Assembly (NCBI GenBank): GCA_030550205.1
Contig: JAUQPS010000001.1
Location: 1-58,784 of the forward strand
Length of the DNA: 58,784 nucleotides
Source: a bacterium
GTDB lineage: Bacteria > Hydrothermota > Hydrothermia > LBFQ01 > DSFT01
Reading direction: 5' to 3'
Shown: positions 14,842 through 58,784 of the stretch, piece by piece
Numbering within the stretch: the first letter of the stretch is position 1
Layout of the letters: each line of letters starts with the position of its first letter
Made by a program: the position numbers and the translations under genes
Notes under the pieces: model-generated
Database searches by the model: none
What the model saw: only the letters and a program-made list of their open reading frames with translations
Told to the model about the DNA's origin: nothing

Positions 14842-16191
14842 ATGATATTCTTATTATTACAAGTAGATAGCACTAAACTTTTGGATAAAGTTATTGCGGT
14901 TGTAAATGATGAGCCTATATTTCAATCAGAACTTGAAGAAATATATAGAGCAACTACAACAACAGAAAATGATTCATTAAAAAAAGCTATTCTTGAAAAT
15001 CTTATAAAACAAAAAGCAATTTTAGTTTTAGCAAAATCAGATACTACATTATCTGTTTCAAATGAAGATGTTCAAAGTGCTTCAAAAAGCTATTTAGATA
15101 ATATATACTTTCAATATGGAAGAGTTGAAATTTTTAATAAATTACAAGAAGAAAAAATAAATCCTAATGATACAACAAAACTAAAAGAAGTTTTAAAAAG
15201 TTATAATGTTCCTGATAGTATTATGAACTTTCAAGACCCTGAACTTGGAAATAAAGTTTTCTTAATAGTAGGCAAGCAAATTTTTGAAAATGAGTTAAAA
15301 AAGAATAATTTAACATTAAGTGAATTTCTTGAAAGTCAAAAAGATTTTATAAAAAAGCAAATACTTATTCAAAAATATATCTCAAAATATATAACTCCTG
15401 AGATAAGCATTGATGAAGGCGAAATTAAACAATTTTTTGAAACTCATAAGGACTCATTTCCAAAACAGCCAAATGTTTATTATTTACAACAAATTGTAAT
15501 TCCTGTTCAACCATCATTTGAACAAGAAGAAAAAGCATATAATAAAATTAAAGATATTTATAAGAGGCTTCAAAAAGGAGAGGATTTTTATAAAGTAGCA
15601 AAAAGATATTCAGAAGATAGTATCATTCAAATTGGTTGGATTAAAAGGGATTATTTAGCTCAATTTTTAAGCCCCGATATTATAACTGAAATATTTTCCA
15701 TAAGTAAAAATTCTTATACAAGACCATTAAGAACACCAATGGGATATAATATATTTAAAATTGAAGATAGAAATGCTGATTCTGTAAAATTAAGTCATAT
15801 TTTAATAAGAGTAAAGCCTTCAAAAGAAGATATTGAAAAAGCGAGAACAAGAGTATTAGAAGTTCTTGAAAGTGCTAAAAAAGATTTTGAAAAAACAGCA
15901 AAGGAATATCCTTTTGCTCCACTTGATATTGGATATGTTCCAGAAGATGCTTTGGGTGAAGAACTTAAAGTTTATTTTAAAGATGTAAAGGAAAATTCAA
16001 TTGTTGGTCCAATTTATAAAGATGGATTTTATTTAATTTTAAGAGTAAAGCAGTTTATACCTGAAAGGGTTGTTAAATATGAGGATGTAAGAGAACAAAT
16101 TAAATTTATGATAATGAATAAGAAAATTGAAGAAAAGATAAGTCAAATTTATGAAAAGAACAAAGATAAATTTTTAATAAAAATTTATTGA
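14842..16191 (+). CDS. surA: SurA-like periplasmic peptidyl-prolyl isomerase/chaperone
   Basis: 449 residues. A SurA N-terminal chaperone domain (DKVIAVVNDEPIFQSELEEI) is followed by two parvulin-like domains. The first is at about 205-300 (YYLQQIVIPV); the second is at about 315-410 (KLSHILIRVKPSKEDIEKAR). The family helps outer-membrane proteins cross the periplasm. The N-terminus is only MIFLLLQVDSTK, a very short uncharged hydrophobic segment. It cannot be longer, because the codon before ATG is the tal stop. Export must therefore rely on an ultrashort signal. Cotranscribed with tal and folD. Confidence 0.85.
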   Translation: MIFLLLQVDSTKLLDKVIAVVNDEPIFQSELEEIYRATTTTENDSLKKAILENLIKQKAILVLAKSDTTLSVSNEDVQSASKSYLDNIYFQYGRVEIFNKLQEEKINPNDTTKLKEVLKSYNVPDSIMNFQDPELGNKVFLIVGKQIFENELKKNNLTLSEFLESQKDFIKKQILIQKYISKYITPEISIDEGEIKQFFETHKDSFPKQPNVYYLQQIVIPVQPSFEQEEKAYNKIKDIYKRLQKGEDFYKVAKRYSEDSIIQIGWIKRDYLAQFLSPDIITEIFSISKNSYTRPLRTPMGYNIFKIEDRNADSVKLSHILIRVKPSKEDIEKARTRVLEVLESAKKDFEKTAKEYPFAPLDIGYVPEDALGEELKVYFKDVKENSIVGPIYKDGFYLILRVKQFIPERVVKYEDVREQIKFMIMNKKIEEKISQIYEKNKDKFLIKIY

Positions 16192-16192
16192 G

Positions 16193-17016: not shown

Positions 17017-17021
17017 GCATT

Positions 17022-17866: not shown

Positions 17867-18330
17867 AAAGAATTCTTTTAATTTTTTGGGTGTTAATAAA
17901 TGTTTTCGTTATTGGTTATCTATTTTTTAAATTTGAAGGACAAAAACAAAGAATTATTAATGGTTTTGAACTTGAAAGACAAAGTTTTGTATATAATTTA
18001 GGATATACTATTGGACTTTTTGTAAGGGATAAAGTATTAAGTGAAAGTTTTCCAGATGGAATTAGAAATTATTTAAATGAGCTTGTTAGAAATAATAAGA
18101 ATTTAGATTTAATTTTAATTGCAGATTCATTGGGAAATGTAATTTATTCTTCAAATGTTGCATATGAAAACAAAAATATAAATGAGCTCTTTTCTGAAAA
18201 TATAACATCACTTGTAAATTACCAATTAAAGTCAAGTAAGGATAAAATTATCTTAAATATGCCAATTTCAGAATTTAACAAAAAGCTTTTATATATAAGG
18301 ATAGAATATAAAAAGGAGGGTAGGTTATGA
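17863..18330 (+). CDS. Membrane-anchored protein with possible sensor-like domain
   Basis: 155 residues. One N-terminal transmembrane helix ([19 protein letters not shown]) is followed by an extracytoplasmic region of about 125 residues. Its spacing and the segments [18 protein letters not shown] and [17 protein letters not shown] resemble the Cache/PAS-like sensor domains of transmembrane receptors. No output domain follows. It begins GTG, overlapping nuoB, and its stop overlaps the OmpA-like gene by 4 nt. I do not recognise a named family, and the Cache resemblance is weak. Confidence 0.5.
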
Positions 18331-20639
18331 TATCACTTTTATTGGTAGCACAAACAGAAACTTATCTTTATGGTCTAAACTATGAGGCTCTAACGGGAAC
18401 AAGAAGAGTTGGCTCTGCGTTTGTTGATGGGATAAATGCTCTCACATTCCATCTGATAAATATAAACTATGAATATTCTTCGTCTGATTATGTTCTAAAT
18501 GGTAAACAAGGAAAACCTTTTATAGGTTCTCAATTCTTTGGATTTGGATATAGTTTGGCTCCATTTGAGGCTAGTGTAATAATGAAATATTTTGGTGATG
18601 CCTTTGATATAAATGGGGAAGGATGGTACTTGGGATATGGTCTTGGAGATGTGAAAGCAAACTTTAAAGTTGGTATTCCAATTGTAAAGAATACATTCGC
18701 GGTAGGTTTTAGGGGATATATAAATATACCAATTGGTGAAGAAGTTTATTTGGATCCCAATTCTTTTGATAAAGATACGCTAGGTGGTGTTCCTTTTGCA
18801 ACCCAAGACCCAACTGGTGGAAAAGGTGGAATTTATCGTCCGTTTGCATATAAAGTTTTAACATATGGGCTTGGAGGTGCTTTTTCTTTACAAAAATATC
18901 CATTAAGATTAAATTTTGAAGGTGTTTATAATGTTGGAGATACCACAAAGGGTGATGAATTTTGGCAATTTGGTTTGGGACTTTTAGCACATGTTGGAAT
19001 TGTTAAGCCATATGCGGAATTTGTATATTTAAAACCACAAGGTGATAATTTTGCTGATTCTTCTGCTACTTTATTAACATTTGGTTTAAAGGTTGGCTAT
19101 CCTTATTGGCATTTTGATATTGCACTTGAAAAGCCTTTAAATTATAGTTATGGGCCTTATGGACCTGATTATGTAAATGGACTACCTTATGGAGCATTTA
19201 AGCCAGATTGGAGTATCTGGGTAGCTCTTAACTTTACATATGAAGCTGGTATTCCAAAAATTAAATATGGTGATGTAATTGCACTTATTCAAGATGCTCA
19301 AACCAATGCTCCTATTAATAATGCAAGTGTAAATTTAAAGCTTGAAAAAGCACCTTTATCCCAGGCATCTGACCAGTTTGGGAAGGTTGAGTTTAAGAAA
19401 ATTCCTGTTGGAAGTTATGTTATTGAAGTATCTGCAAAGGATTATCAACCAGAAGTTAGAACAATAAATATAAATGAGGGCAAGAATGAAGTTAGAATTT
19501 TATTAAGTAAAATAAAGAAAGGAACAATTACAGTTAGAGTTTTTGATAGTGAAACCAAAGAACCATTACAAGCCCTTGTAAGTTTATTTAAGGATAATAA
19601 TAAAATATCAGAAGATAGAACAAATGAAAAAACTGGAACTTTAACATTTAAAGATTTAGAATCTGGCAATTATTCAATTAGAATTGAAAAAGAAGGTTAT
19701 AATGCTACTGTAAGAACAATTGAATTAAAGGAGAGTGCAATTGAGGAAGTTGGTTTAGTGAAAATAAAAGTTGAAACTCCAAAATTTGTAAAATTAACAG
19801 GAAAAGTTACAGATGCTAAAACAAATGCTCCTATTGCAGGTGTTCAGATTGTAGCAGGTGGTAAAAGTGTTGTAAGTGATCAGTTTGGATTATATACAAT
19901 TGATTCATTACCACTTGGTGTAATTCAAATTGGAGCAACAAAAGAAGGATATCAAACATATTCTGAGGTTATTCAAGCAAATGTTGAGGGAGCTCTTGTT
20001 AAGAATATTACATTAACTCCAATTGAAGAAAAACCAAAAACTGGAAAAGTAGTTATAACAGTTATTGATAGAGAAACGAAAAAACCTGTAATAGCTAATA
20101 TAAACATACCTGGAACTAATGTATCTGGTGCAACTGATAATAGTGGAGCTTATTCATTTGAAGTAGGACCTGGTGAATATGCAGTAAATATACAACCCCA
20201 AGACCAATCATATTATCCTCAGGTTAAGCAAGTTAGTGTAAAAGTTGGTGAAACTACAACTATTGTTGCAGAGCTTGTTAAGAAAGAAGCTAAAATTGTT
20301 GTAAGGAATATCTACTTTGATTTAAATAAAGCTACATTAAGACCAGAAAGTTATCCTGTTCTTGATGAATTATGTCAATTATTAAAAGAAATGCCAACCG
20401 CTGTTGTTGAAATTGAAGGACATACAGATAGTAGAGGTTCTGATGAATATAATTTAAGACTTTCAGATGCAAGAGCAAATGCTGTAAAAGATTACTTTAT
20501 TACAAAAGGTTGTATATCACCAGATAGAATTAAAGCAATAGGATATGGAGAAACAAGACCAGTAGTATTTCCAGAAAAGACAGAAGCAGATTATCAAATG
20601 AATAGAAGAGTTGAGATTAAATTCAAAGGAGAAAAGTAA
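18327..20639 (+). CDS. Large OmpA-family protein with barrel, carboxypeptidase-like repeats and peptidoglycan-binding domain
   Basis: 770 residues. An N-terminal beta-barrel-like region (to about 310) is followed by four carboxypeptidase-regulatory/PEGA-like domains at about 310-655. Repeated units include IQDAQTNAPINNASV, VFDSETKEPLQALVS, VTDAKTNAPIAGVQI and VIDRETKKPVIANI. A C-terminal OmpA domain follows (IYFDLNKATLRPESYPVL, IEGHTDSRGSDEYNLRLSDA, MNRRVEIKFK) that should bind peptidoglycan. The N-terminus is [14 protein letters not shown], an ultrashort uncharged signal that is fixed by an in-frame TAG just upstream; AGGAGGG precedes the ATG. A strong terminator follows. Probably an outer-membrane structural anchor. 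Confidence 0.85.
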   Translation: MISLLLVAQTETYLYGLNYEALTGTRRVGSAFVDGINALTFHLININYEYSSSDYVLNGKQGKPFIGSQFFGFGYSLAPFEASVIMKYFGDAFDINGEGWYLGYGLGDVKANFKVGIPIVKNTFAVGFRGYINIPIGEEVYLDPNSFDKDTLGGVPFATQDPTGGKGGIYRPFAYKVLTYGLGGAFSLQKYPLRLNFEGVYNVGDTTKGDEFWQFGLGLLAHVGIVKPYAEFVYLKPQGDNFADSSATLLTFGLKVGYPYWHFDIALEKPLNYSYGPYGPDYVNGLPYGAFKPDWSIWVALNFTYEAGIPKIKYGDVIALIQDAQTNAPINNASVNLKLEKAPLSQASDQFGKVEFKKIPVGSYVIEVSAKDYQPEVRTININEGKNEVRILLSKIKKGTITVRVFDSETKEPLQALVSLFKDNNKISEDRTNEKTGTLTFKDLESGNYSIRIEKEGYNATVRTIELKESAIEEVGLVKIKVETPKFVKLTGKVTDAKTNAPIAGVQIVAGGKSVVSDQFGLYTIDSLPLGVIQIGATKEGYQTYSEVIQANVEGALVKNITLTPIEEKPKTGKVVITVIDRETKKPVIANINIPGTNVSGATDNSGAYSFEVGPGEYAVNIQPQDQSYYPQVKQVSVKVGETTTIVAELVKKEAKIVVRNIYFDLNKATLRPESYPVLDELCQLLKEMPTAVVEIEGHTDSRGSDEYNLRLSDARANAVKDYFITKGCISPDRIKAIGYGETRPVVFPEKTEADYQMNRRVEIKFKGEK

Positions 20640-26415: not shown

Positions 26416-26421
26416 GCATAG

Positions 26422-27528
26422 ATGATAAATTTAATTTTAAATTTAAGTTTTGGACCTCATCCTATATCTATGGGTAATGCTTATAATGCCTATGCTGAAA
26501 GAGTAGATGGTATATTCTTTAATCCTTCTGCTGCTTCTATGGCTAGTAGAGTTATGCTAGGTGGGTTTTATTCCCAGGCGGGTTATTATGGTGGAGGACT
26601 TGTTATTCCAAATAGATTTGTAGCAATTGGAGTTGCTGGTTACTTGGATAGCACTAAAAATGGTATGATTTATGGTGTTTTATCAAGGAATTTTAGTGGG
26701 TTTAATATAGGTTTTGGTGTTCAATATCCATTTAGTCAAGATACTGCTAAAAAAGATACTACTTTAAAGCCTCATTTTTATGGTGGATTTAGTTTTTATT
26801 TTAGTGAATATTTTATGTTTGGTTTTACTGCTGAAAATATAGATACACCAAATGCCTTAAAACTTAAATTTGGCATTCAAGTTGCTAACTATCCTTTGCC
26901 AGTTATTGGTAGGTCATTAACATTTACGATGGATTTAAATACAACTATGGCAAGGGAAGAGAAAAGTAGGGATTTGGCAGCACTTGGAATAGAGCTTGCT
27001 CCATTTTATCCATTATTTTTAAGAATAGGTTATAATTATAATCCAGATATTGGCCATAGATTACCTGCGGGTTTAGGTATATTATATGTATATAATACAG
27101 TTGATATTTTGGGTGACCTTAGTGTGAATGATATTAAGGCGGAGAGTAAAGATAAGGTTTATACTTTTGGACTAACTGTAAAATTCTTTGGTCATACAGT
27201 ATGGGCTGAATCTTCACCTAAAATTATAGAGGTTATTCCTGAATCTGAAGCAAGTGTAACAAAAATTTGTTTTAGATATATTTTACCATCAAAAGTTACA
27301 AGATGGACATTTAACATAACAAATAGGTGGGGTAAAATTTATAAAACATATTGGGGGGATGATAACCCACCAAGTGAATGTATTTATTGGCATGTTGTAG
27401 ATGAAGAAGGGAAATATACAGGACCAGGGGTTTATTATTATGATTTTATAGTTAGAACAGAAGATGGAAGAATTTATAAAAGGAGAGGAGGCTTAGTTAA
27501 TGTAAAGAAGGGGGTGAAAGGGATATGA
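26422..27528 (+). CDS. PorV/UPF0164-like outer-membrane barrel with C-terminal FlgD-like module
   Basis: 368 residues. After MINLILNLSF comes the typical PorV-type start GPHPISMGNAYNAYAERVDG with FFNPSAASM. Alternating strands of a barrel run to about residue 270. The last 90 or so residues form an Ig-like FlgD/gliding-type module (WTFNITNRWGKIYKTYW, GVYYYDFIVRTEDGRIYKRR). PorV is the shuttle protein of type IX secretion in Bacteroidetes; homologues occur in several FCB phyla. The start is fixed by an in-frame TAG directly before ATG, so the signal is ultrashort. First gene of the operon to at least 33727. Confidence 0.75.
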   Translation: MINLILNLSFGPHPISMGNAYNAYAERVDGIFFNPSAASMASRVMLGGFYSQAGYYGGGLVIPNRFVAIGVAGYLDSTKNGMIYGVLSRNFSGFNIGFGVQYPFSQDTAKKDTTLKPHFYGGFSFYFSEYFMFGFTAENIDTPNALKLKFGIQVANYPLPVIGRSLTFTMDLNTTMAREEKSRDLAALGIELAPFYPLFLRIGYNYNPDIGHRLPAGLGILYVYNTVDILGDLSVNDIKAESKDKVYTFGLTVKFFGHTVWAESSPKIIEVIPESEASVTKICFRYILPSKVTRWTFNITNRWGKIYKTYWGDDNPPSECIYWHVVDEEGKYTGPGVYYYDFIVRTEDGRIYKRRGGLVNVKKGVKGI

Positions 27529-30119
27529 TGCCAATTTTAAATGTGATTTTGAGCTTGACATATGAAGAATTTTACAAATCATATAGAGAAGCGGAAGCGC
27601 TTTTCTTCGCTGGCAAATACGATAAAGCGGAAAGGATATATAGGCGTTTATTAACTGATGCTAGAAAATTTGGGTATGGTAAGGAGTTTCTTTATAGAAT
27701 AGCGGAATGTCATTTCAATATGGGTAGTTATAAAAATTCCTATGATGAGTTTACTGCTTTATATAAGGATGGTGAAATTGAAAAGAAATTACCATATTTA
27801 AAAGGCGAAATAGCTTATGCTATTGCAGTTTTCTTTACGAATTTTAGAGATCCAAAAGAAGCTAAACAAGTTATTCAAGAGCTTCAAAAATACCCATATT
27901 ATAAGAATTCTAATAGAACGAAGATGTTATTAGGAATAATAGATTATAGAGAAGGTAGATACGATGAAGCAATTGAAAAATTAAAAGATATTAAAGATAT
28001 TCCTGAGGCTCAGTTTTACTATGCTAGGAGCTTAGCATTATTGCAAAGACCATTAGAGGCTATTGGAGTTTATAAAGTGCTCTTAGAAAGGTATAAAAAC
28101 ACACCAAGAGAACCATTTATATCTTATGCAATGGTTGAAGCAAACTTTATATATGCGGATTATAAGGGAACAGCAGAATTAGCAAAGGACTTTATGCAAA
28201 AATATCATGGTTCCATATTTTCTGATTGGGTTCAATATTATTGGGGTATATCTTTATATAGAATGAAAGAATTTGAGAGTGCAATTGAAAAGCTAACACT
28301 TATTTCTAAAAAGCAAAACTTTGAATTTGCTAACTTAGCAGCATATTTTGCTGGAAATGCTGAAAGAGAATGGGGTCATCAGTATAAATCAGAAGGAAAA
28401 GTTGATGATGCAAAAGCTAAGTATAAAGAAGCAGTTAAATACTATGAATCTGCTTTAGCAAAAGCAAATGATCAAGAAATTTATAATGTATCTTTTATAA
28501 GATTAATGCAGGCAAACTTTTATGTTGGAGATACACTTAAATCCTATACAATGGCTGATCAATTAAAACAAATGAAATTCCCACCAGAGGAAGCAGGTAT
28601 TGGTGAATATGCAAGAGGTGCAATTGATTATGCACTTGGTAAATATACACCTGCTGCGAAGAACTTTGAGTTAGTAATAGAAAATTATAAGCAAACATTT
28701 TTAAGAAAACCTGCTATGGCTATGGAGATGTTATCCTTGGTTCATGATAGAAAATTTAAAGAAGCATTGTTAAAAGGTAATATTTATTATGCAGAAATGC
28801 AAGATACTGTAAGGCCAGAGGCACAGGATACATCATTTGATTTGTGGAAAGGTTGGTATGTTTTAGGGTTGGCAGAAGCTCACTATTATGCTGGTGCTTA
28901 TCCTGAAGCAGAATTAAGATATAATATAAATATAAAGAAGCAATTGACAAGAGATTTAGTAATACTTTCAAGGCTTGGTCTTGGATGGATAGCATATCAT
29001 CAAAAGCGATATGATGATGCATTAGCGCACTTTAACTCCATAGATGGTGCTGTAAGAGCAAGGGGAGACACATCGCTAATAATTGCGTTATTCCTTGGAA
29101 AAGGTGTTGCTAAATTTAATAAAGGTGAATATATGGATGCATTTAAGGATTTCGCAGTTGCTGCTCTTTATACACCAAGATATGAAAGTGGTGAGGCTTT
29201 ATACTTCCAGGGTTTTGCAGCTTTGGCACTTAAATCCTATGGTGACGCAGTTAAGTTATGGGAGAGAGTGGTTAATGAATATCCAGACCATCCAAGAGCA
29301 GCATTAGCAGCATTTAGAGCGGCTGATATTTATCTTAAAGCAGCACAAGTTGATAAGGCTATTGCTTTATTAGAATGGGAAGTTGAGCATTTCCCAGGTC
29401 ATCCTATTACACCAAGAGCAATGTATTCACTTGGTAGAAACTATACTATAAACAAAGAATTTGATAAAGCTATACAAATATATGAAAAATTCTTATACTT
29501 ATATCCAGACCATGAACTTGCTCCTGATGTTAGAAAGAGAGTTGAAGATGTTTATTTGGTAGCATCTACACAAGATCCAAAATATGCTGAACAACTTGCT
29601 CAAAAATATCCTGCAAGTGATAAAGCAGCAGAGGCATTGTATTTGCAGGCAGCTCAAGCATATCAAAATGGTGATGAAGAGAAAGCGGCAGATTTATTCT
29701 TTAGAGTTGCTAATGAATTTCCAAAGAGTCCAAAGGCAGCAGAGGCTCTTTATACTGCTGGTGCTTTATACTTGAAGCAAAAGAAATATCAACAAGCAAT
29801 TCAAGCTTTAAAGAAATATAAAGATTTCTTCCCACAAGGCACAAATATAGAAGATGTGTATAATTACCTTATGACCGCTTATTTAGCATCTAATGATTTT
29901 ACTTCTGCAATACAAATTGGACAAGAAGCATTAAATAAATTCCCAGAAAGTAAAAATAAAGCAAAAACATTGTTTAACATTGGATGGGCTTATTCACAAC
30001 TTGGTAATTCAAAAGAAGCAATTGCTTATTTACAACAAGCAAGAACATTGTATGAACAAGAGGGTAATACGCAGATGGTAAGCCAGATAGACCAAATTTT
30101 GCAAATTTTACCTAAGTAA
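27525..30119 (+). CDS. Large exported TPR protein
   Basis: 864 residues made almost entirely of tetratricopeptide repeats. Examples are FFAGKYDKAERIYRRLL, YREGRYDEAIEKLKDI, FDKAIQIYEKFLYLYPDH and KKYQQAIQALKKYKDFFPQG. The C-terminal half resembles the BamD/CpoB-like 'YPDH..A.A' TPR class. A short hydrophobic N-terminus (MMPILNVILSLTYEE) suggests export. ATG 27525 overlaps the PorV-like stop with a GGGGGTGAAAGGG site, and upstream codons to the in-frame TAA offer no other start. By position it probably scaffolds the Tol-like complex, much as AglT does in Myxococcus gliding clusters. That parallel is inference. Confidence 0.85.
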   Translation: MMPILNVILSLTYEEFYKSYREAEALFFAGKYDKAERIYRRLLTDARKFGYGKEFLYRIAECHFNMGSYKNSYDEFTALYKDGEIEKKLPYLKGEIAYAIAVFFTNFRDPKEAKQVIQELQKYPYYKNSNRTKMLLGIIDYREGRYDEAIEKLKDIKDIPEAQFYYARSLALLQRPLEAIGVYKVLLERYKNTPREPFISYAMVEANFIYADYKGTAELAKDFMQKYHGSIFSDWVQYYWGISLYRMKEFESAIEKLTLISKKQNFEFANLAAYFAGNAEREWGHQYKSEGKVDDAKAKYKEAVKYYESALAKANDQEIYNVSFIRLMQANFYVGDTLKSYTMADQLKQMKFPPEEAGIGEYARGAIDYALGKYTPAAKNFELVIENYKQTFLRKPAMAMEMLSLVHDRKFKEALLKGNIYYAEMQDTVRPEAQDTSFDLWKGWYVLGLAEAHYYAGAYPEAELRYNINIKKQLTRDLVILSRLGLGWIAYHQKRYDDALAHFNSIDGAVRARGDTSLIIALFLGKGVAKFNKGEYMDAFKDFAVAALYTPRYESGEALYFQGFAALALKSYGDAVKLWERVVNEYPDHPRAALAAFRAADIYLKAAQVDKAIALLEWEVEHFPGHPITPRAMYSLGRNYTINKEFDKAIQIYEKFLYLYPDHELAPDVRKRVEDVYLVASTQDPKYAEQLAQKYPASDKAAEALYLQAAQAYQNGDEEKAADLFFRVANEFPKSPKAAEALYTAGALYLKQKKYQQAIQALKKYKDFFPQGTNIEDVYNYLMTAYLASNDFTSAIQIGQEALNKFPESKNKAKTLFNIGWAYSQLGNSKEAIAYLQQARTLYEQEGNTQMVSQIDQILQILPK

Positions 30120-32815: not shown

Positions 32816-33727
32816 ATGAGATTATTTAAGCTTTTAATTATTTTAGGTTTTGTGGGGCTTTTGATGTCCCAAGAGCAACAACCTCCTGCTCAAGGAAGTG
32901 GAACAGAACAAGAAGAGGAAGTTGTTGAAAAAGCTGAATATTCCATTGATGATGCAATAAAGCCTATTACGGATGTTTCGCTTGCCCCATTTGAGCCTAT
33001 TGACTCTTTACTTTATCGCAAAGAAAGAAAATTAGAGCTTAGACTTCCAAAGACCATAGAAGAAGAAATTAGAAAGGTTATAAAACTTGAAAACTTATTT
33101 ATAAGACAACCTGTATATCCAATAAATGTATATAAACAAGTTCCTCTTAATGTTGGCGAGTTTAATAAGAAATATAGAAATGTTAAAGATTGGAAAATAG
33201 AAATATATGACTCTTGGGGAAATAAGCTTAAAGAATATTCTGGTAAAGGAAAGCTTCCTGATTATGTTTATTGGGATGGAAAAGATACAAAAGGTAAGGC
33301 GGTTGTTGAGCCAGGACAACTATTCCATTATAGAATTATTGTTTCTGATGGAAGAGAAACAAGAAGAGAATTAAGTAAGCCATTTTCTGTTAAGGGATAT
33401 TACTATGAAGAGGGGGGTTATAAATATACTATTGTTGATATAGGAGATGTATTTGAAAGGGGATTTGCAGTATTTAGAGAAGGGCAAGAGGATAGAATTA
33501 TAGAAGCTTTAAATATATTAAAAGAGAATTATCCTTGGACAGCACCTATTGAGATTACATATTATCCAAGTCCAGAAGCTATGGGTGTTATGGAAGAGCG
33601 TATGAGGATATTGAAACAATTTATAATGAGTAGATTACCTATTGAAGAAGGTAATTTAGTATTAAAGCCTGGATATTATGAAGGTGGAGGAATAAAGCTA
33701 GAGAAGATTGTAATAAAGTTTAAATAA
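32816..33727 (+). CDS. Exported protein with FlgD-like Ig module and possible OmpA-like end
   Basis: 303 residues with a standard charged signal (MRLFKLLIILGFVGLLMSQE). The middle has a FlgD/gliding-like Ig module (DWKIEIYDSWGNKLKEYSGK, YVYWDGKDTKGKAVVEPGQL) very like the one ending the PorV-like protein at the head of this operon. The C-terminal part (RIIEALNILKENYPWTAPIE, ERMRILKQFIMSRLPI) has the strand-helix pattern of OmpA-type domains but lacks a clear peptidoglycan-binding signature. AGGAGG precedes the ATG. Its position directly after tonB suggests it is a partner of the Tol-like complex. Confidence 0.7.
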   Translation: MRLFKLLIILGFVGLLMSQEQQPPAQGSGTEQEEEVVEKAEYSIDDAIKPITDVSLAPFEPIDSLLYRKERKLELRLPKTIEEEIRKVIKLENLFIRQPVYPINVYKQVPLNVGEFNKKYRNVKDWKIEIYDSWGNKLKEYSGKGKLPDYVYWDGKDTKGKAVVEPGQLFHYRIIVSDGRETRRELSKPFSVKGYYYEEGGYKYTIVDIGDVFERGFAVFREGQEDRIIEALNILKENYPWTAPIEITYYPSPEAMGVMEERMRILKQFIMSRLPIEEGNLVLKPGYYEGGGIKLEKIVIKFK

Positions 33728-42389: not shown

Positions 42390-42393
42390 AATC

Positions 42394-42406: not shown

Positions 42407-42408
42407 AT

Positions 42409-44601: not shown

Positions 44602-45450
44602 ATGAAAAGGTTGATGATGAGCTTGTCACTTCTTGTTTCCATAGCGTATGCTGAAAAATTTTCAGCTGATTTGTATCTTGGATACGGTTCAACAAAAGAA
44701 GCTTATGATAGCACGGGTAAATCTGATACAATAGGGGGATCCTATTCAGTCCTTAATTTAGCTCTGGGTGGTAAATACTATGTTTTTGCCCCCGAATTAG
44801 GTCCAAAAATTTATATAGGAGGAAAGTTTGGATTTACACAAAACCAACTTTCAAATGGGGGTTCAACAAGTAGTGGATTTTCTCCACAATATCTAAGTCT
44901 ATTGTTGGGAGGTTCTTACCTTTTTGTAAATGGCAAAGTTGGTTTTCAATTAGATTTGGGACCAGAAATGGATTTTAATAGTAATAAAATACAAAATTCA
45001 GATCGTCAGAATGCTATTCTTGTAGGGTTAGGCGCAAATGTTCCATTTATGGCAGGATTAGGCGATTTTCATGCAAGTTTTGATTATGTATATACTCTTT
45101 CAAAAACAGAGAATAATATAACTTATGATAATGGAGATTATATTAGTTTTGTTTTTGGCGGTGGTTATAAGGTTGGTTTGGCTGAATTGGTTTCTTTGAG
45201 TTTTGGTCTTGATATTGTATATTGGAATAAAACAAAGGGTGATAGTAATAGTTTTTGGCAAGAAGATGCAAACAACTTATCCCTTGTTCCATACTTTAAA
45301 TACAAAACTGGACCTTTATCTATTTGGGCTAAATTAGGAGCAAAATATGGATGGTTTGGAGAATATACATATAGTGGAATTTCTATTATGGGAAAGAATT
45401 CACTTAAAACTCTTTTAGGTTTTACAATTGGTCTTAATGTATCATACTAA
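44602..45450 (+). CDS. Outer-membrane beta-barrel protein
   Basis: 282 residues with a standard signal peptide (MKRLMMSLSLLVSIAYA, cleavage before EKF) and about ten alternating hydrophobic strands (FSADLYLGYGSTKEAY, QYLSLLLGGSYLFVNGKVGF, YISFVFGGGYKVGLAEL), ending in an aromatic-terminated strand FTIGLNVSY as expected for BAM recognition. No specific porin family is recognised. AAAGGAGGT precedes ATG, and a terminator hairpin follows. Its charged n-region contrasts with the many ultrashort signals nearby. Confidence 0.75.
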   Translation: MKRLMMSLSLLVSIAYAEKFSADLYLGYGSTKEAYDSTGKSDTIGGSYSVLNLALGGKYYVFAPELGPKIYIGGKFGFTQNQLSNGGSTSSGFSPQYLSLLLGGSYLFVNGKVGFQLDLGPEMDFNSNKIQNSDRQNAILVGLGANVPFMAGLGDFHASFDYVYTLSKTENNITYDNGDYISFVFGGGYKVGLAELVSLSFGLDIVYWNKTKGDSNSFWQEDANNLSLVPYFKYKTGPLSIWAKLGAKYGWFGEYTYSGISIMGKNSLKTLLGFTIGLNVSY

Positions 45451-46999: not shown

Positions 47000-47335
47000 T
47001 TAGCTTTCAAGCAATTTCAAAATTTTATAATTATCATAAAATCCCAAAATTAATAATATAATTGAAATTATAACATTTCCACCAAACATTACAAATAAAA
47101 CACTTCCAGCAGTATATAATAAACTTAAATTTGAAACACTCCAAAGTGCTAATGTTTTTTTATCAAATTTTGATTTTGTTTTTTTAATAGTAAATTCATT
47201 AAAATATGATAGCAAAAAAATAATAATTATTGGAATGATTTTATATATTGAGCATACTTCTGGCTTTTGAATACTATAAATTACCCAAACTGCTAAAATA
47301 TATGAAATAGTTGGAATTAAAAGGTATATTTTCAT
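47000..47335 (-). CDS. Small four-helix membrane protein
   Basis: 111 residues with about four transmembrane helices (IYLLIPTISYILAVWVIYSI, IIPIIIIFLLSYF, ALWSVSNLSLLYTAGSVLFV, VIISIILLILGFYDNYKIL). The loop after helix 2 is basic (TIKKTKSKFDKK). I recognise no family. It overlaps the upstream OmpH-fusion gene by 4 nt and is the last gene of the leftward envelope operon 47000-49509. Confidence 0.6.
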   Translation of the reverse strand: MKIYLLIPTISYILAVWVIYSIQKPEVCSIYKIIPIIIIFLLSYFNEFTIKKTKSKFDKKTLALWSVSNLSLLYTAGSVLFVMFGGNVIISIILLILGFYDNYKILKLLES

Positions 47336-48228
47336 TTTTTCAAGCTTTCACGATACTTATTCATAATATCTTTAGTATAGGCACTAATTAACTTTGACCA
47401 TTCTTCTTCTTTATCAGAGCTCTGGCCACTTCTTGAATAAATTTCCTTACCATCTTTTGAATAAATTGAAATTTTAAAATAAATTGTATTCTCTTTTATA
47501 TCCAAATTTCCCCATACAAATGCATCTAATTTTAGAATTGAAACTGCTTTTAATATACCATCCATTGTCGGGTCTTCTTTATTATATATATTAGCGGTTT
47601 GCTCAGTAGAAACAAAATTTATATTAGGGATTTTTTTAATTTCTGTTTCCATAATACTTACCATCTTGTCAGCAATATCTTTTAGTTTTGATGTTTTTGT
47701 ATTTAATTTAAAATAAAAAATTCCTACATAGTTTATTCCGCCTCTGATGACTGTTGCATAAGCCTTATTTAATTCATTTAAAACAACATCTGTAATATCA
47801 TTGTTGCTATTGAAATATAAAATTGCATCATTATTGCTTTTGTTTATAACAATATCATAGTTATTTCTCCTTGCTATGCTATCAATTACTGAATAAATTC
47901 TATTTATATATGGTGTGACAAGCTGTTGATATTTTTGGCTAACTTGATTATATATATCTTTTGCAAGATTTTGATATTCAATTTCCTTTTGTTCAATTTT
48001 TTTATTTAATCTATAAATACCTTCTTCTGTTAAAAATGCTCTTTGTTCCGAAAGTAAATTTTTTAAGCTATCAATTTCTTTTTTTAAACTATCTAAGGTT
48101 TTTTCTTTTTCTAATTGAAATTGCCTTACTTGATTTAAAGCATCTTTATAATCATAGTAATTTGCTTTAATTTTTTCCATATCTACAACTGCAAAATTGG
48201 CTTTTTGAGCTAAAATTATAAATAACAT
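47332..48228 (-). CDS. Skp/OmpH-like chaperone domain fused to a C-terminal lipoprotein-like domain
   Basis: 298 residues. Residues 9-150 or so match the Skp/OmpH pattern: ANFAVVDMEKIKANYYDYKD, a long coiled coil (KEKTLDSLKKEIDSLKNLL) and VTPYINRIYSVIDSIARRNN with the closing strand YDIVINKSNNDAILYFNSN. The last 140 or so residues are a separate alpha/beta domain (GINYVGIFYFKLNTKTSKLK, LKAVSILKLDAFVWGNLDIK) resembling TolB-N/CsgG-like assemblies. The two are in one unbroken frame. The signal is an ultrashort MLFIILAQ. ATG 48228 lies 4 nt beyond the 3' end of the tRNA gene. Probably a periplasmic chaperone. Confidence 0.7.
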   Translation of the reverse strand: MLFIILAQKANFAVVDMEKIKANYYDYKDALNQVRQFQLEKEKTLDSLKKEIDSLKNLLSEQRAFLTEEGIYRLNKKIEQKEIEYQNLAKDIYNQVSQKYQQLVTPYINRIYSVIDSIARRNNYDIVINKSNNDAILYFNSNNDITDVVLNELNKAYATVIRGGINYVGIFYFKLNTKTSKLKDIADKMVSIMETEIKKIPNINFVSTEQTANIYNKEDPTMDGILKAVSILKLDAFVWGNLDIKENTIYFKISIYSKDGKEIYSRSGQSSDKEEEWSKLISAYTKDIMNKYRESLKK

Positions 48229-48232
48229 AATG

Positions 48233-48320
48233 CGGTGGGGGTGGGATTTGAACCCACGTCCCCCTTTTAAGGGGAAGCTGATTTCGAATCAGCCCCTTTC
48301 GTCCGCTCAGGCACCCCACC
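48233..48320 (-). tRNA. tRNA-Ser (anticodon CGA)
   Basis: The minus strand folds as a class II tRNA. The acceptor is GGTGGGG/CCCCACC with discriminator G (48233). The anticodon arm is GCTGA-TTCGAAA-TCAGC, giving anticodon CGA for codon UCG. The long variable arm is TTCCCCTTAAAAGGGGGAC and the T arm is GTGGG-TTCAAAT-CCCAC. CCA is not encoded. The long variable arm confirms serine identity. Its first base is the last base of the upstream gene's TAG stop, and the next gene's ATG is 4 nt past its end, so it must be cut from an mRNA-containing transcript. Confidence 0.95.
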
Positions 48321-48922
48321 TATTGCTTTTGATTACAATTTAAAGATACATAGACTGTAAAGCTTATATTATTTTTTCCAATGTTTGAAATTTGAGGTAA
48401 ATTTATAGTAGGTTCTATATCTTGAAACTCAATTTTTTCAATGGAGCAATTTTCATTAATAAGCTTTGCTTGCTGCTTTATGTTATCTATTATTTCCTTC
48501 ATATATTTTAGTTTTTCTTGAAGCAATAGAGAATCCGATATTGAAGAATCAGTGGATTTTAACTCAAAGGAAACTTCTGCTTTTTTTAGATTTTTTGAGA
48601 GAAATTCTTCAAGTTTTTTAATCTCTTCTTCATCTTTTAGTATAAACTCAATATTCCAATAACCCATGTATCCCGAGATTACCCTTTTCTCTGAATTTCC
48701 TTCAATTATATACAATGGCATTATTCGTGTGTCTTTTAAATCATATTTATACTTAGACTTTTTTAAGATATCTTCAATTTGGGAAAATTTTTTATTTATA
48801 TCACTTTCGGAATTTCCCTTATTCGTTTGAAAACTATAAGTAGCTTTTATAATGTCAGGTTTTATTGACTTTGAAAACACCAACGAATAATTTAAAATCT
48901 GACTTAAAATTAAGTTTATCAT
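48320..48922 (-). CDS. SIMPL-domain (DUF541) exported protein
   Basis: 200 residues with the SIMPL/DUF541 layout: strands IKPDIIKATYSFQTNKGN, then KSKYKYDLKDTRIMPLYI, SGYMGYWNIEFILKDEEEIK and a C-terminal FTVYVSLNCNQKQ. Family members are periplasmic; E. coli YggE is linked to oxidative-stress tolerance. N-terminus MINLILSQILNYSLVFS is a short signal without charge. The TAG stop shares its final G with the 5' base of tRNA-Ser. ATG overlaps the upstream stop by 4 nt. Confidence 0.75.
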   Translation of the reverse strand: MINLILSQILNYSLVFSKSIKPDIIKATYSFQTNKGNSESDINKKFSQIEDILKKSKYKYDLKDTRIMPLYIIEGNSEKRVISGYMGYWNIEFILKDEEEIKKLEEFLSKNLKKAEVSFELKSTDSSISDSLLLQEKLKYMKEIIDNIKQQAKLINENCSIEKIEFQDIEPTINLPQISNIGKNNISFTVYVSLNCNQKQ

Positions 48923-49509
48923 CTTAACTGCCTTGTTTGGTCAAATTGTATTATTGATTCAAGTTCAAATGGTGTTGTTGTTAACTGCCTTTTGCTTTTA
49001 ATAAAGTAATACAAATATCCATAAAAATATCTATCTTCTCTTAAAGAGCCTCCAAAGAATTTAAGTGTATCACCACTATCTAATATTCCAAATGTCGGAA
49101 CTAATTGATATCTTGATAATGGAACATCCATCGTTACCATTTTATAAACCACTGAGCCATTTAAAAGTTTATAAACAATATAAACATTTCTATCCATGTA
49201 TAAAATCAATACATCATTTATAGCAAATCCTACAACTTTATGCTGCCAACCATTACATTTTCCGTCCTTCACTGGTGCAGTCATAAGTTCTCTTCCTCTA
49301 TGGTCAAAAACAGTAATTACACCATATGGACTTATTTCTGTTTTATATCCTGCATAAGTTTGAGATTTGGAATTGAAACAATCTTCAAATTCAGGGAATT
49401 GTATCCTTAATTCCTTAGCCCTTTCAATAGCCTTTACAATTTGAAGAGTATCCCATTTTACACTTTGTAGTTTTTGAAAACCCTGTAAGTTTATTATCCA
49501 AAAGAGCAT
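48919..49509 (-). CDS. Exported protein of unknown function
   Basis: 196 residues from ATG 49509. I recognise no family. Visible features are a short hydrophobic N-terminus (MLFWIINLQGFQK), then strand-rich segments resembling propeller blades (YKTEISPYGVITVFDHRGRE, YMDRNVYIVYKLLNGSVVY). The frame stays open to 49587, but a perfect copy of the window's promoter motif lies at 49513-49527 inside that extension and ends 3 nt before ATG 49509, so 49509 is preferred. It heads the leftward operon with the SIMPL protein, tRNA-Ser, OmpH fusion and membrane protein. Confidence 0.6.
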   Translation of the reverse strand: MLFWIINLQGFQKLQSVKWDTLQIVKAIERAKELRIQFPEFEDCFNSKSQTYAGYKTEISPYGVITVFDHRGRELMTAPVKDGKCNGWQHKVVGFAINDVLILYMDRNVYIVYKLLNGSVVYKMVTMDVPLSRYQLVPTFGILDSGDTLKFFGGSLREDRYFYGYLYYFIKSKRQLTTTPFELESIIQFDQTRQLR

Positions 49510-49512
49510 AAT

Positions 49513-49527
49513 TGAAAATTTTAAAGC
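49513..49527 (-). promoter_or_regulatory. TTTAAAAT promoter of leftward envelope/tRNA operon
   Basis: Minus strand GCTTTAAAATTTTCA ends 3 nt before ATG 49509. It decides the start of the first gene and probably also drives tRNA-Ser. Confidence 0.65.
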
Positions 49528-49603
49528 AATATTAGGTAATGTTTTTTGATAAAATTGATATTTTAAAAGTCGGTGCAAAGGGCTCACATGTAATAAGATA
49601 AGG

Positions 49604-54417: not shown

Positions 54418-54420
54418 AAT

Positions 54421-54434
54421 TGAAAATTTTAAGG
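54421..54434 (-). promoter_or_regulatory. TTAAAAT promoter before yajC-def
   Basis: Minus strand CCTTAAAATTTTCA ends 3 nt before ATG 54417. Confidence 0.6.
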
Positions 54435-54488
54435 CTTAATTAAAAGGCGAATTGAGATGATATTTATTTTGAAAGTTTTAAAGATATG

Positions 54489-54575: not shown

Positions 54576-56780
54576 ATGGCTACGCTTTTGTTGATCGCAG
54601 GCTTAGGCTTGCCGAACAACCTTTTAATAGAGAATAGAGGACAAGTAAGTCCTCATATTGCTTTTTATACGCTAAATGGTATTGTGATAAATCATAATGG
54701 AACTATAGAGATAGGAAATATAAAATTCTTTTTGAAAAATTCCAAAAGATATAGGATATATCCTCAATTTCAGGAAGGTGAGTTCGCATATGTAAATAGT
54801 AATCAAACGATAAAGGCTAAATCTTATAGAAGTGTGAGATTGAAAAGTGTATATGATGGAATAGATTTGGTTATAAATGGCATGGATAATAATAAGTTTG
54901 AATTTTACTTTGAAATAAAGCCTTATGCAGATGTAGATAAGATAAAAATTATAACTAACATTTCTCCTCAATTAAAAGGAGATAGTGTAATTATTGGTAA
55001 TATAGTAATTTCAAATGTTAAGGCTTTTAGTGGCTCGCAAGAAGTTAAAGTTCAAACAATTATTAAAGATAATGAAATATCCTATAATGTTACTAATTAT
55101 GATAAATCAAAAACGTTAATTATTGACCCTATTGTAGCAATGTTAGTAAGTGCTCATAATGATATTGTAAATTCTCTTGCTTATGATACTTTAACTAATA
55201 GTATTTTGGCGGTTGGTTGTACTAATGGTTCAGGAGCATTTAGTTCAAATCCTCAAACTTCGTTTGGTGGTGTGGGTCCAGGTTATTATGATGTATTTAT
55301 CACTAAACTGAGTAGTAGTTTAAATACTCATATTCAAACAACATTTATGGGAAGTGTTCCCAATATTCATGATTGTGCATATGATGTAAAGTTAGATGCA
55401 AATGGTAATGTTTATGTTGCTGGTATGACGGAGAAGGGAGATAGCTTCCCAACTTCTCCATCAATTATTTATGGAACAGTTGGAAATAAAGATGCTTTTT
55501 TAGCTAAATTTGATAATAGTATAACTAATTTAATGAGGGTTTTGATATTTGCAAGTCCTCTTGATGATGAAGCATTTAGTTTATATATTAAAAATGACAA
55601 AATTTTTATAACTGGTTACACTTCAAACACTTCACAATTTACTAATATAGCGCCAAATATATTTGGAACAATTGGAAATAAGGATGCTTTTGTAATATCC
55701 ATAGATACATTTTTTATTACAGCACCAATTTTAGCAATTGTATCATCAAGTGGTGATGATATTTCAAAATCAATAGTAATTGATAATAATCAAAATGTTC
55801 TTATAACAGGATATACGAGTAATCAAACTAATTTTGCTCCTTCAAGAACACTCATTGGTATAGCTGGTGGAAATGATGCCTTTATTACAAAATTGAATTC
55901 TTCATTAAATAATCATTTATCAACTATAATTTTGGCAAGTTCAAATGATGACTATTCAAATACAATTACCTTAGATAGTTTAAATAACATCTTTATTGGA
56001 GGGCAGACTAAAAATAGCTCTAATTTTTCAAGTGGTGCTAATATATTTACTTATGGAACTTTGGGAGGTGTTTCAGATGCTTTTGTTGCCAAATTAGATA
56101 ATAGTTTTCTTAATCCAAGAATTGCTATTCTTACAAGTCCTGGTAGTAATTTGCTTTCTGATTCAGAAATGGTTAAAGGAATTATAGTAGATAAATCTAG
56201 TCAGTTTGTTTATGCAGTTGGATTTACTCATAACTCTTCAAACTTTACGCCGAATCAAACAATTTATGGAACAACTTCTGGTTCTGGTCAGTTTGATGCT
56301 TTTTTAGTTAGTTTGAATAATGATTTAAGCTCACTTTATAAAACTTACATTTATGCAGGTAGTGATGATGATTATGCTTCTTATGTTACGCAGGCTTATG
56401 GTGTAACTTATATTGGGGGTTATACAATTTATGGAACAAATTTTATATGTAATAGTTGTTCAAATAAGTATGTTTATGGTCCATTTATGAATGCATTTGA
56501 CGGATTTGTTATTCTTCATGATGTTCCATATAATAGTAGTGAAACAAAAAATAACAATTTAGTTTATTATAGAAATGGCTATATTGTATTTAATGTTAAT
56601 AAACCGACTTATTTGGGTTTTGATGTATATGATTTGAGGGGAAGATTAGTTTTAAGTAAATCTATTGGTTATGTATTGGGTGGTGAGTATAAAGTTAAAT
56701 TTGATAGAAAGGGTGTTTATGTTGTTATGGTTAAAGTAGGAGATGAAGTTAGAATTATTAAGGTAGGTAATTATGAGTAA
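54576..56780 (+). CDS. Secreted DUF7948/SBBP-type repeat protein with C-terminal sorting-type domain
   Basis: 734 residues. The N-terminal domain (about 14-190) starts LPNNLLIENRGQVSPHIAFY, the DUF7948 pattern. About six degenerate SBBP propeller units follow (NVYVAGMTEKGDSFPTSPSI, VLITGYTSNQTNFAPSRTLI, VYAVGFTHNSSNFTPNQTIY), each with a DAF(L/I/V) strand. The end (YLGFDVYDLRGRLVLSKSIG, GVYVVMVKVGDEVRIIKVG) is a type IX type A-like sorting domain. The start is fixed by TAG immediately upstream; MATLLLIAGLG is an ultrashort signal. Probably surface-displayed; function unknown. Confidence 0.75.
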   Translation: MATLLLIAGLGLPNNLLIENRGQVSPHIAFYTLNGIVINHNGTIEIGNIKFFLKNSKRYRIYPQFQEGEFAYVNSNQTIKAKSYRSVRLKSVYDGIDLVINGMDNNKFEFYFEIKPYADVDKIKIITNISPQLKGDSVIIGNIVISNVKAFSGSQEVKVQTIIKDNEISYNVTNYDKSKTLIIDPIVAMLVSAHNDIVNSLAYDTLTNSILAVGCTNGSGAFSSNPQTSFGGVGPGYYDVFITKLSSSLNTHIQTTFMGSVPNIHDCAYDVKLDANGNVYVAGMTEKGDSFPTSPSIIYGTVGNKDAFLAKFDNSITNLMRVLIFASPLDDEAFSLYIKNDKIFITGYTSNTSQFTNIAPNIFGTIGNKDAFVISIDTFFITAPILAIVSSSGDDISKSIVIDNNQNVLITGYTSNQTNFAPSRTLIGIAGGNDAFITKLNSSLNNHLSTIILASSNDDYSNTITLDSLNNIFIGGQTKNSSNFSSGANIFTYGTLGGVSDAFVAKLDNSFLNPRIAILTSPGSNLLSDSEMVKGIIVDKSSQFVYAVGFTHNSSNFTPNQTIYGTTSGSGQFDAFLVSLNNDLSSLYKTYIYAGSDDDYASYVTQAYGVTYIGGYTIYGTNFICNSCSNKYVYGPFMNAFDGFVILHDVPYNSSETKNNNLVYYRNGYIVFNVNKPTYLGFDVYDLRGRLVLSKSIGYVLGGEYKVKFDRKGVYVVMVKVGDEVRIIKVGNYE

Positions 56781-56819
56781 TAAGGAAAAATCTATTTCTT
56801 TGAATAGGAGGTTAAGGCT

Positions 56820-56870
56820 ATGATAAAACCATATAAAAAACAACATAGAGAGCAGGAGATAGCATCATGA
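56820..56870 (+). CDS. Possible 16-codon leader ORF
   Basis: ATG 56820 has a good AGGAGG (56806-56811) and encodes MIKPYKKQHREQEIAS, ending TGA 56868-56870, which overlaps the ATG of the next gene. No homology is recognisable. It could couple translation to the following SBBP gene rather than make a functional peptide. Confidence 0.35.
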   Translation: MIKPYKKQHREQEIAS

Positions 56871-58784
56871 TAATGCTAAGCGTGATGATATCTTTTGTCT
56901 CAGCTATGGGTGGTAATGTTGTAAATAGCTATGACCCTTCTATTATAAAAGAATGGCTCAATTCCTATCCCTATCTCTATAAAGGTTTCACACCCAATAA
57001 AGGCCAACTTGCTACTATAGATGGAAAGATAGCTGAAAATGTTGTTTTCTATTCAAGGAATGGAAATATGGGTATATTCATAACTGAAAATGGAATGAGT
57101 TATGTGATATATGATATTGAGAAAAAGGAAGTTTCAAAAGATAATAAAGAGCCATCTTTACCTATAAATAAAGAACCTGAAAATTCTATATTACACTATT
57201 CGAGAATAGACTATGAGCTAATAGGAGGGAAGATAAAAAAAGAGAATATTATCTATCAAGATGAACTACCAGGATATGAGAACTTTTATTTAGCACATTG
57301 TCCAGATGGAATACTATTTGTAAAGAGTTATAGGAAGGTTATCATAAAAGATATATATCCTGGAATAGATTGGATATTTAGGTATGATGGTAATGGCAAT
57401 TTTCATCATGAGTTTGAGGTAAAAAATCCCCAGTTGATATCACAAATAAAGCTAAAAGTAAAATATGCTGATATAGAGTTAGCAGATAATGGAAAGTCAA
57501 TAATTTTATCAACGCCAATTGGAAAGATAAAGGATGGGAATTTAATAGGGTATCAAGGGAATAATATAGTAGAAGTGAGTTATAGACTAAAAGAAAATGA
57601 CTTATTAACATTTGAAGCTATTGACTATGACAAAAATAAATCATTACTAATTGACCCTTATGCTCTTGTATGGGGGACTTATTATGGAGGGGATTATGAT
57701 GATATTGGTTGGTCTATCGCAGTGGATGCACAGGGTAATATATTTCTGACAGGTGAATCATGGTCAACTAACTTCCCAGTTCAAAATCCTTATCAAGGAG
57801 TCTGCAATGGATGTCCTAATAATCCTGATGTTTTTATATTGAAATTTAATAATTCGGGAGTAAGACAATGGGCTACTTATTATGGGGGGACTGATTATGA
57901 CTATGGCTATTCTCTTACTACGGATGCAAATAGCAATGTATTTATAACAGGAAGAACATTTTCAGCTAATTTTCCAACCTATAATCCAGGTGGAGGTGCT
58001 TATTATGATAATAGTTGTGGAGGATGTACAACTTATTCTGATGCTTTTATTGTAAAGTTTTCTAATTCAGGGACATTATTATGGACTACTTATTACGGAG
58101 GAAGTAATTATGATTATGGTTCTTCTATTACAACAGATGCTAATGGTAATGTGTTTTTGACTGGATATACTTATTCAACTGATTTTCCAACCTATAACCC
58201 AGGTGGAGGTGCTTATTTTCAGTCAAATTATGCTGGTTATATGGATGTTTTTATATTAAAGTTTTCTAATTCAGGAATTTTGCAGTGGGCCACTTATTAT
58301 GGAGGGAATGACTTTGATGAAGCTCGCTCAATTACAACAGATGATAATGGTAATGTATTTTTAACAGGAAAGACGAAATCAACTAACTTTCCAACTCAAA
58401 ATGCTGGTGGATATTTTGATGGAACTTGTGGGACTGACGGAAATTGCAATGGTGGTTATTATGATGCTTTTATTTTAAAGTTTGATAATTCAGGTCAAAG
58501 GTTGTGGGCTACTTATTATGGAGGAAGTAGAGATGAAACTGGTTATTCTATTGCAGTAGATGATAGTGGTAAGTTGTTTGTAACAGGAAGAACACTTTCA
58601 AATGATTTTCCAACTCAAGATGCTGGTAATGGTGCTTATTATGATAATAGTTGTGGGACTGATGGAAATTGTAATTTTGATGGGATAATGTATTACTCTG
58701 ATGCCTTTATACTAAGATTCTCTAATTCAGGTGTTCTACAATGGGCTACCTATTATGGAGGCAGTAATCAGGATGATGCTTATA
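56867..58784 (+). CDS. DUF7948/SBBP-repeat secreted protein, 3'-truncated by window edge
   Basis: An open frame of 639 visible codons continues past the window. An N-terminal DUF7948 domain (LYKGFTPNKGQLATIDGKIA, YPGIDWIFRYDGNGNFHHEF, LLIDPYALVWGTYYGG) is followed by clear SBBP repeats. Each repeat reads W(A/T)TYYGG, then SI(A/T)TDANGNVFLTG, FPT and DAFI(L/V)KFSNSG. Several contain Cys-rich inserts (CNGCPN, CGGCTT, CGTDGNC) likely to form disulfides. The N-terminus is MIMLSVMISFVSAMGG. A paralogue of the preceding gene but with a much more regular propeller. The SBBP family is associated with outer-surface beta-propellers; function unknown. Confidence 0.78.
   Translation, partial: MIMLSVMISFVSAMGGNVVNSYDPSIIKEWLNSYPYLYKGFTPNKGQLATIDGKIAENVVFYSRNGNMGIFITENGMSYVIYDIEKKEVSKDNKEPSLPINKEPENSILHYSRIDYELIGGKIKKENIIYQDELPGYENFYLAHCPDGILFVKSYRKVIIKDIYPGIDWIFRYDGNGNFHHEFEVKNPQLISQIKLKVKYADIELADNGKSIILSTPIGKIKDGNLIGYQGNNIVEVSYRLKENDLLTFEAIDYDKNKSLLIDPYALVWGTYYGGDYDDIGWSIAVDAQGNIFLTGESWSTNFPVQNPYQGVCNGCPNNPDVFILKFNNSGVRQWATYYGGTDYDYGYSLTTDANSNVFITGRTFSANFPTYNPGGGAYYDNSCGGCTTYSDAFIVKFSNSGTLLWTTYYGGSNYDYGSSITTDANGNVFLTGYTYSTDFPTYNPGGGAYFQSNYAGYMDVFILKFSNSGILQWATYYGGNDFDEARSITTDDNGNVFLTGKTKSTNFPTQNAGGYFDGTCGTDGNCNGGYYDAFILKFDNSGQRLWATYYGGSRDETGYSIAVDDSGKLFVTGRTLSNDFPTQDAGNGAYYDNSCGTDGNCNFDGIMYYSDAFILRFSNSGVLQWATYYGGSNQDDAY
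57671..58784 (+). repeat. Tandem SBBP repeats within the coding sequence
   Basis: The TGG of the WxTYYGG unit starts at 57671, 57869, 58082, 58286, 58505 and 58742, giving periods of 198-237 nt (66-79 residues). Length varies through loop inserts carrying Cys pairs. The array continues beyond the window. Confidence 0.8.

Follow-up and report, generated by a model that had tools for sequence, protein, structure and literature searches.

Many proteins of envelope families encoded in a 58,784-nucleotide stretch of contig JAUQPS010000001.1 (assembly GCA_030550205.1; this whole stretch is herein the window) begin with uncharged hydrophobic segments of 6 to 9 residues, which are probably genuine, minimised Sec signals used by SecA-SecYEG without the signal recognition particle (SRP). 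A normal signal has about 20 residues, and SRP is nearly universal. The bacterial class concerned has apparently lost the SRP pathway entirely (Ffh, FtsY, and SRP RNA), and the ultrashort signals together with this loss place export in these cells outside textbook models. The window comes from a 1.9-Mb metagenome-assembled genome (MAG; 210 contigs, 86% complete, 6.7% contaminated) that is placed in candidate division WOR-3 (NCBI phylum Caldifarciminota), the closest named relative being the WOR-3 MAG SKYB27. Relatives are given by group codes (G, genome; f, family; g, genus); the window's order comprises families f1 and f2.

All eight short N-termini quoted by the initial annotation occur in the window sequence as described; its list was incomplete, having overlooked MLFWIINLQ at 48919..49509. 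The loci, with an intervening tRNA gene, are as follows (SD, Shine-Dalgarno sequence).

14842..16191, plus strand: SurA/PPIC-type chaperone, N-terminus MIFLLLQVDSTKL; Pfam Rotamase and a weak SurA_N match; TAA abuts the ATG.
18327..20639, plus strand: CarboxypepD_reg and OmpA outer-membrane protein (Pfam OmpA), N-terminus MISLLLVAQ; SD AGGAGGG; stop two codons upstream.
26422..27528, plus strand: PorV-like protein, N-terminus MINLILNLSFGPH; weak NCBIfam PorV match; TAG abuts the ATG.
27525..30119, plus strand: protein with TPR domains, short and uncharged N-terminus MMPILNVILSLTYEEF.
34207..34722, plus strand: TlpA-like lipoprotein with a GTG start, (M)ILLIAFALLFSGC; AhpC-TSA; TAA abuts the GTG.
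42409..44583, plus strand: M14 carboxypeptidase, N-terminus MLFIFLNFFSDEK; Peptidase_M14 (1.3e-63); TTTAAAATTT box before the start.
47332..48228, minus strand: OmpH/Skp-domain protein, N-terminus MLFIILAQ/KANFAVVDME; OmpH (2e-23) from residue 12.
48232..48320, minus strand: tRNA-Ser(cga), found with ARAGORN; its end is 3 nt upstream of the OmpH ATG.
48320..48922, minus strand: SIMPL-like protein, N-terminus MINLILSQILNYSLVFSKS; weak SIMPL match; identical N-terminus in G001.
48919..49509, minus strand: conserved protein, likely start MLFWIINLQ, leaderless; -10-like box next to the ATG.
54576..56780, plus strand: SBBP beta-propeller protein, N-terminus MATLLLIAGLGLPNN; DUF7948 and SBBP; TAG abuts the ATG.

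Orthologues of the SurA protein are just as short within the order; the PorV-like protein has a relative in G005 that starts MTLILFAQ/MGTGG, and the TPR protein an orthologue there with MTTLLVAGLFGGGFTYKDF (766 bits). The frame at 48919-49587 (minus strand) most likely begins at 49509, the homologous Met at which its G001 orthologue (MLFYILVLQ) begins. For the SIMPL-like protein, MINLILSQILNYSLVFSKS may alternatively be a hydrophobic stretch that extends further. The 14-residue lipoprotein and SBBP N-termini are less extreme than the remaining short cases.

Tabulating orthologue N-termini, taken from genome stretches of up to 60 relatives, extends the observation beyond the window. SurA and OmpH orthologues of the order begin with 6 to 9 uncharged hydrophobic residues (MLLLLTVQ/LDT, MVLTLLLAQ/TYK), often with a stop just upstream, and both are short throughout f2. 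In that family SurA starts MIILLAAQLDT, MLLLLTVQLDT, MMLLLLSQLDT, or MFFLLISQLDT, and OmpH starts MVLTLLLAQTYK, MVLTLLLTQTFK, MVLALLLSQSYR, MAFVLIFSQTPK, or MVLLILFSQASK, with nine residues before the mature domain and no Lys or Arg (8/8 genomes). In the window's genus SurA starts MIFLLLQ and MLFIFLFS and OmpH starts MLFIILAQ or MLFIIISQ, the window's own OmpH N-terminus being free of Lys and Arg. SurA of f2 and f1g1 has 12 to 14 residues up to the conserved domain and no Lys or Arg, SurA of f3 is intermediate (MIKILILFFSQ; 16 to 18 residues, one Lys), and elsewhere there are 18 to 28 residues with one or two Lys/Arg, signals being ordinary (21 to 26) in f4, f6, f7, f10, and f11. For OmpH, most of the remaining class has 18 to 24 residues with one to three Lys/Arg, and genus g2 of f1 retains a longer charged signal, MKRLVLFIMAAVGAAYAQ; the g2 SurA start, MLALLILSQ, was taken at an internal ATG in a frame that is open upstream. 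The mature starts align between lineages; therefore, the signal itself has been shortened. Longer charged signals in relatives, which the initial annotation would have counted against the unusual signals, do exist beyond the order, and in g2 for OmpH, but they point to shortening, since the short forms are stop-bounded and mutually conserved. On these alignments, the short signals are a product of evolutionary shortening and not of misannotation.

Genes were called mechanically on stretches of up to 20 kb from ∼16 genomes, and N-termini were scored as short when an uncharged hydrophobic start had its first polar residue at position 7 to 12 and a soluble region afterwards. Starts were chosen by a simple script rewarding both an SD and a -10-like box; some are wrong, including, in the orthologue comparison, those of SurA in G002 and G003 and of OmpH in G001 and G043. 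Of the order's 720 non-membrane genes, 38 had a short uncharged N-terminus, compared with 13 of 3053 internal Met positions (P=8e-18), a ∼12-fold excess at gene starts. Looser settings gave 62 distinct cases, with hydrophobic runs of 6 to 10 residues including Met (mode 7 to 8), a range that straddles the 7-residue minimum for the hydrophobic core of a Sec signal. Gln comes first among the polar residues in 23 of them (37%; 5.6% expected, P=1e-13), and a small residue precedes this Gln at -1 in 12/23, compared with 7/92 at positions -2 to -5. Many of the short N-termini end in Asn, Asp, or Pro rather than Gln. By domain matches the carriers include LptD, a subtilase with its N-domain, a DUF4159 protein, two M16 peptidases, a CAP protein, FlgT_N and FlgD_ig proteins, and PorV-like and TPR proteins; OmpA, OmpH, SurA, LptD, subtilase, and M16 are envelope families. 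A cytosolic background is present among the survey matches (e.g., MIVLSGMRPTGK, MIVLSGMRPTGKLHIGH, MCGILGVVG). The short segments contain no Arg, and a twin-arginine (Tat) motif is thus missing from them. Gln directly after the signal is also common in the long signals of WOR-3 (SurA and OmpH loci: FLIPIIASAQQ, LVFAQ), often with Leu or Ile at -3.

Lipoproteins behave differently: 26 candidates are charged and 2 uncharged, compared with 37 and 60 for non-lipoprotein candidates (P=2e-7), and the lipoprotein at 34207 has the sole uncharged lipoprotein signal in this genome's sample. Charged signals occur in the window too, at 44602, 32816, and 33740 as the initial annotation stated, and at a further locus.

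44602..45450, plus strand: ordinary charged signal, MKRLMMSLSLLVSIAYA followed by EKF; charged orthologues in g2.
32816..33727, plus strand: charged signal, MRLFKLLIILGFVGLLMSQEQ; the G005 orthologue is also charged.
33740..34210, plus strand: short charged lipoprotein signal, MRSIFVLFLIGLISC.
11669..12040, plus strand: short charged lipoprotein signal, MKRFLFLIFIISC; G001 orthologue MKRLIILFVLSC.

The class was sampled with 40 genomes (G000-G039), of which 25 reach at least 90% completeness with contamination no higher than 5% and one is 99% complete in 4 contigs. None of the 40 has a true match to Ffh/FtsY (PF00448; controls 14/14) or any match to the Ffh M domain (PF02978; 0/40, controls 14/14), and no SRP RNA (RF00169) was found in the class genomes tested (G000-G020 and G023), with 8/9 SRP-bearing WOR-3 relatives positive. 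PF00448 matches most other WOR-3 genomes at ∼1e-60 to 1e-76; the weak matches examined in the class are MeaB, RadA, Mrp/ApbC, and an XrtA-type ATPase, and a divergent Ffh behind them was ruled out by their membership of these other NTPase families. In a quick, midpoint-rooted SecA tree, the sampled class members group together with support, in a position nested within SRP-bearing lineages. SRP is also missing in G045, G057, and G054, which belong to other WOR-3 families; given this and the nested position of the class, two or three separate losses within WOR-3 are likely. G040 and G051 each have a single moderate SRP-type GTPase match (E ∼1e-40 to 1e-46) and no SRP RNA. The distant WOR-3 genome G059 has both SRP GTPases and SRP RNA, and many short, uncharged N-termini (L280-L284; MIAMLFLLAQ in OmpH, two M16 peptidases), which suggests repeated or ancestral shortening.

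The remainder of the export machinery looks ordinary. SecA was found in 59/60 relatives, SecY in 41/41, YidC in 58/60, and signal peptidase I (SPase I) in 38/41. The catalytic boxes of SPase I are intact and ordinary, which rules out an odd SPase I, and YidC is single copy, which rules out an extra YidC in place of SRP. SecY changes specific to the order are scattered (R255 lost in f2, Y258 changed or missing). The initial annotation had raised an unusual Sec/SRP pathway and had pointed to SecA, LepB, and Ffh. The idea of an unusual pathway holds up, and strongly: the unusual part is the classwide absence of Ffh (40/40) and FtsY, with SRP RNA absent where tested, whereas SecA, SecY, YidC, and LepB are unremarkable, and SRP loss is at most a candidate cause of the short signals. 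The loss spans the class; the ultrashort signals are mostly confined to the order.

Under the reading that we favour, the short segments would be recognised by SecA-SecYEG with no involvement of SRP, and the deformylated α-amine, as the only N-terminal positive charge, would replace the basic n-region. Where Gln follows Ala or Ser, SPase I probably cleaves to leave an N-terminal Gln, as under the Bacteroidetes Q-rule, and this Gln might then be converted to pyroglutamate. In the other cases a segment of this length would hardly anchor the protein, and cleavage is perhaps unnecessary. Lipoproteins would keep a longer, basic signal, perhaps since Lgt and LspA have a membrane-inserted helix as their substrate. 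Several points weigh against this reading. Segments of 7 to 8 residues are shorter than signals generally deemed functional. Position -3 is small in 0/23 Gln-ended cases, which departs from what SPase I normally requires, although Leu, Ile, or Val stands at this position in several of the class's long-signal SurA orthologues as well. A prl-like SecY accepting defective signals was ruled out, with no change at known positions: plug residues F67/G69/G70 and pore-ring residues I82, I86, I191, I278, and I408, which we take to be the corresponding E. coli positions, are unchanged in the order. Finally, G059 combines SRP with ultrashort signals, so SRP loss is not required for them, and most SRP-less families retain ordinary signals.

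True translation starts might instead lie upstream, at a non-ATG codon or beyond a frameshift, and add a normal charged signal. The upstream frame is indeed open for OmpH of G000 and G001, and other families have charged orthologues, but many loci have an in-frame stop zero to three codons upstream, and the short length is equal in 8/8 SurA and OmpH of f2, in genomes of 42 to 59% GC where sampled. All six starts for which the initial annotation reported a nearby in-frame stop have one, abutting the start at 14842, 26422, 34207 (a GTG, not the ATG given) and 54576, two codons upstream at 18327 and four at 42409. The window OmpH gene has no near upstream in-frame stop; the tRNA-Ser gene occupies that DNA instead, and a tRNA-Ser likewise lies just upstream of OmpH in G001 (at the window's junction, 48228-48320 on the minus strand, tRNA processing would leave a nearly leaderless OmpH message). 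Upstream starts are thus already strongly contradicted and scarcely credible, and the earlier dismissal of misannotation holds on the upstream stops and the conserved short length. Trimming of the N-termini through leaderless transcription, which the initial annotation had offered as a cause, is also very improbable. A TAAAAT box, mostly 12 to 16 nt upstream, marks many starts of this genome, and a -10-like box occurs at 27/62 short-signal genes (267/853 of all genes), but an SD is present equally often (21/62 and 268/853), and the idea is contradicted by SD-led cases, among them 18327 and L090:3806-4588; start contexts this close to those of all genes give no support to leaderless initiation as the cause. 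The TAAAAT-type boxes themselves (42390-42409, 26400-26422, 54400-54440, and genes of G000) imply widespread leaderless mRNAs beside SD-led operon genes. There is similarly little to recommend the view that the proteins are in fact cytosolic, or their hydrophobic starts a product of chance or AT bias: some cytosolic survey proteins do begin this way, but the 12-fold excess over internal Met, the Gln signature, and the presence of LptD, subtilase, OmpA, and OmpH among the carriers speak against it. AT-richness as a cause was ruled out by the GC range of the carriers (27 to 59%), while the AT-rich G012 retains charged signals.

The main rival to minimised, partly cleaved Sec signals is that the segments serve Sec export uncleaved, as loop-starting tags too short to anchor a protein, with Gln a relic or boundary residue. 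We consider this unlikely, if far less so than the foregoing. It gains from the missing small residue at -3, from the 11/23 Gln-ended cases without a small residue at -1, and from the many N-termini that end in Asn, Asp, or Pro; moreover, a helix of 6 to 8 residues is too short to span the bilayer. Against it, Gln and the Ala or Ser at -1 match the cleavage sites of long-signal orthologues (AYAQ/K and AAAQ/K in g2 OmpH, ILAQ/K in the window), and SPase I is intact. A separate question, which concerns cause and overlaps the favoured reading, is whether SRP loss drove the shortening: with SecA acting alone and no SRP reading the h-region, constraints on the n-region and on length would be relaxed. 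The order does sit inside the SRP-less clade, and shortening is graded from f3 SurA (16 to 18 residues, one Lys/Arg) to f1g1 and f2 (12 to 14, none), yet we think such a driving role doubtful. Short uncharged signals in the SRP-bearing G059 and ordinary signals in f4, f6, f7, f10, and f11, which have no SRP, make the loss neither necessary nor sufficient; it may at best have been permissive.

T9SS-like (type IX secretion system) C-terminal sorting tails are present in the proteins at 42409-44583 and 54576-56780, slightly under the curated cut-off (TIGR04183 for the M14 protein, 20.6 bits; cut-off 23). A type IX-like system may therefore act on proteins bearing ultrashort signals.

Across a bacterial class with near-complete genomes, the full SRP pathway has apparently been lost in nature, and close relatives with and without SRP make the role of n-region charge and the near-universality of SRP testable. 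If the short segments are Sec signals, the natural lower bound for such a signal lies far under predictor and textbook assumptions, and secretome predictions for the phylum are badly wrong. The chances are about even, in our judgment, for the fuller picture of a free-living class without SRP in which one order runs its bulk export on uncharged signals of 6 to 9 residues, smaller than any other natural Sec signal we know of, with targeting that would be SecA-ribosome or mRNA based and make minimal demands on length and charge. A limited literature search, covering neither subscription journals nor preprints, turned up no account of SRP being lost across a class, and none of bacterial signals of 6 to 9 residues.

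Known systems resemble this one in part. Streptococcus mutans survives without SRP (PMC8546722), and mRNA targeting occurs in E. coli (PMC10066597); insertion or export without SRP is common to both and to the class described here, but those are a viable mutant or a laboratory condition, whereas here Ffh, FtsY, and SRP RNA are naturally absent over a class with a single YidC. The Q-rule was described as specific to Bacteroidetes in 2018, with Gln in an average of 71% of predicted SPase I substrates (PMC5837995, PMC10653852). The strong enrichment of Gln at the presumed +1 is shared; the phylum is different, the signals are ultrashort, and Gln follows 37% of the short N-termini. Gln after WOR-3 signals, the long ones included, forms a Q-rule-like pattern outside Bacteroidetes. 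Lipoprotein signals read by Lgt and LspA are, in this genome, mostly 12 to 16 residues long, with Lys or Arg and a recognisable lipobox, and keep the basic n-region that the non-lipoprotein short class has lost. With the standard Sec/SPase I signal, the short segments share an N-terminal position, a hydrophobic stretch, envelope proteins as passengers, and in many cases a small residue ahead of the presumed cut, and SecA, SecY, and LepB are present as in the standard system; they differ in length (6 to 9 residues as opposed to ∼18 to 30), in having no Lys/Arg n-region, and in a -3 position that is not small. As both the basic n-region and the small -3 residue fail, we do not claim membership among Sec signals; judged by sequence, the short segments are best called a variant of them that most likely works alike.

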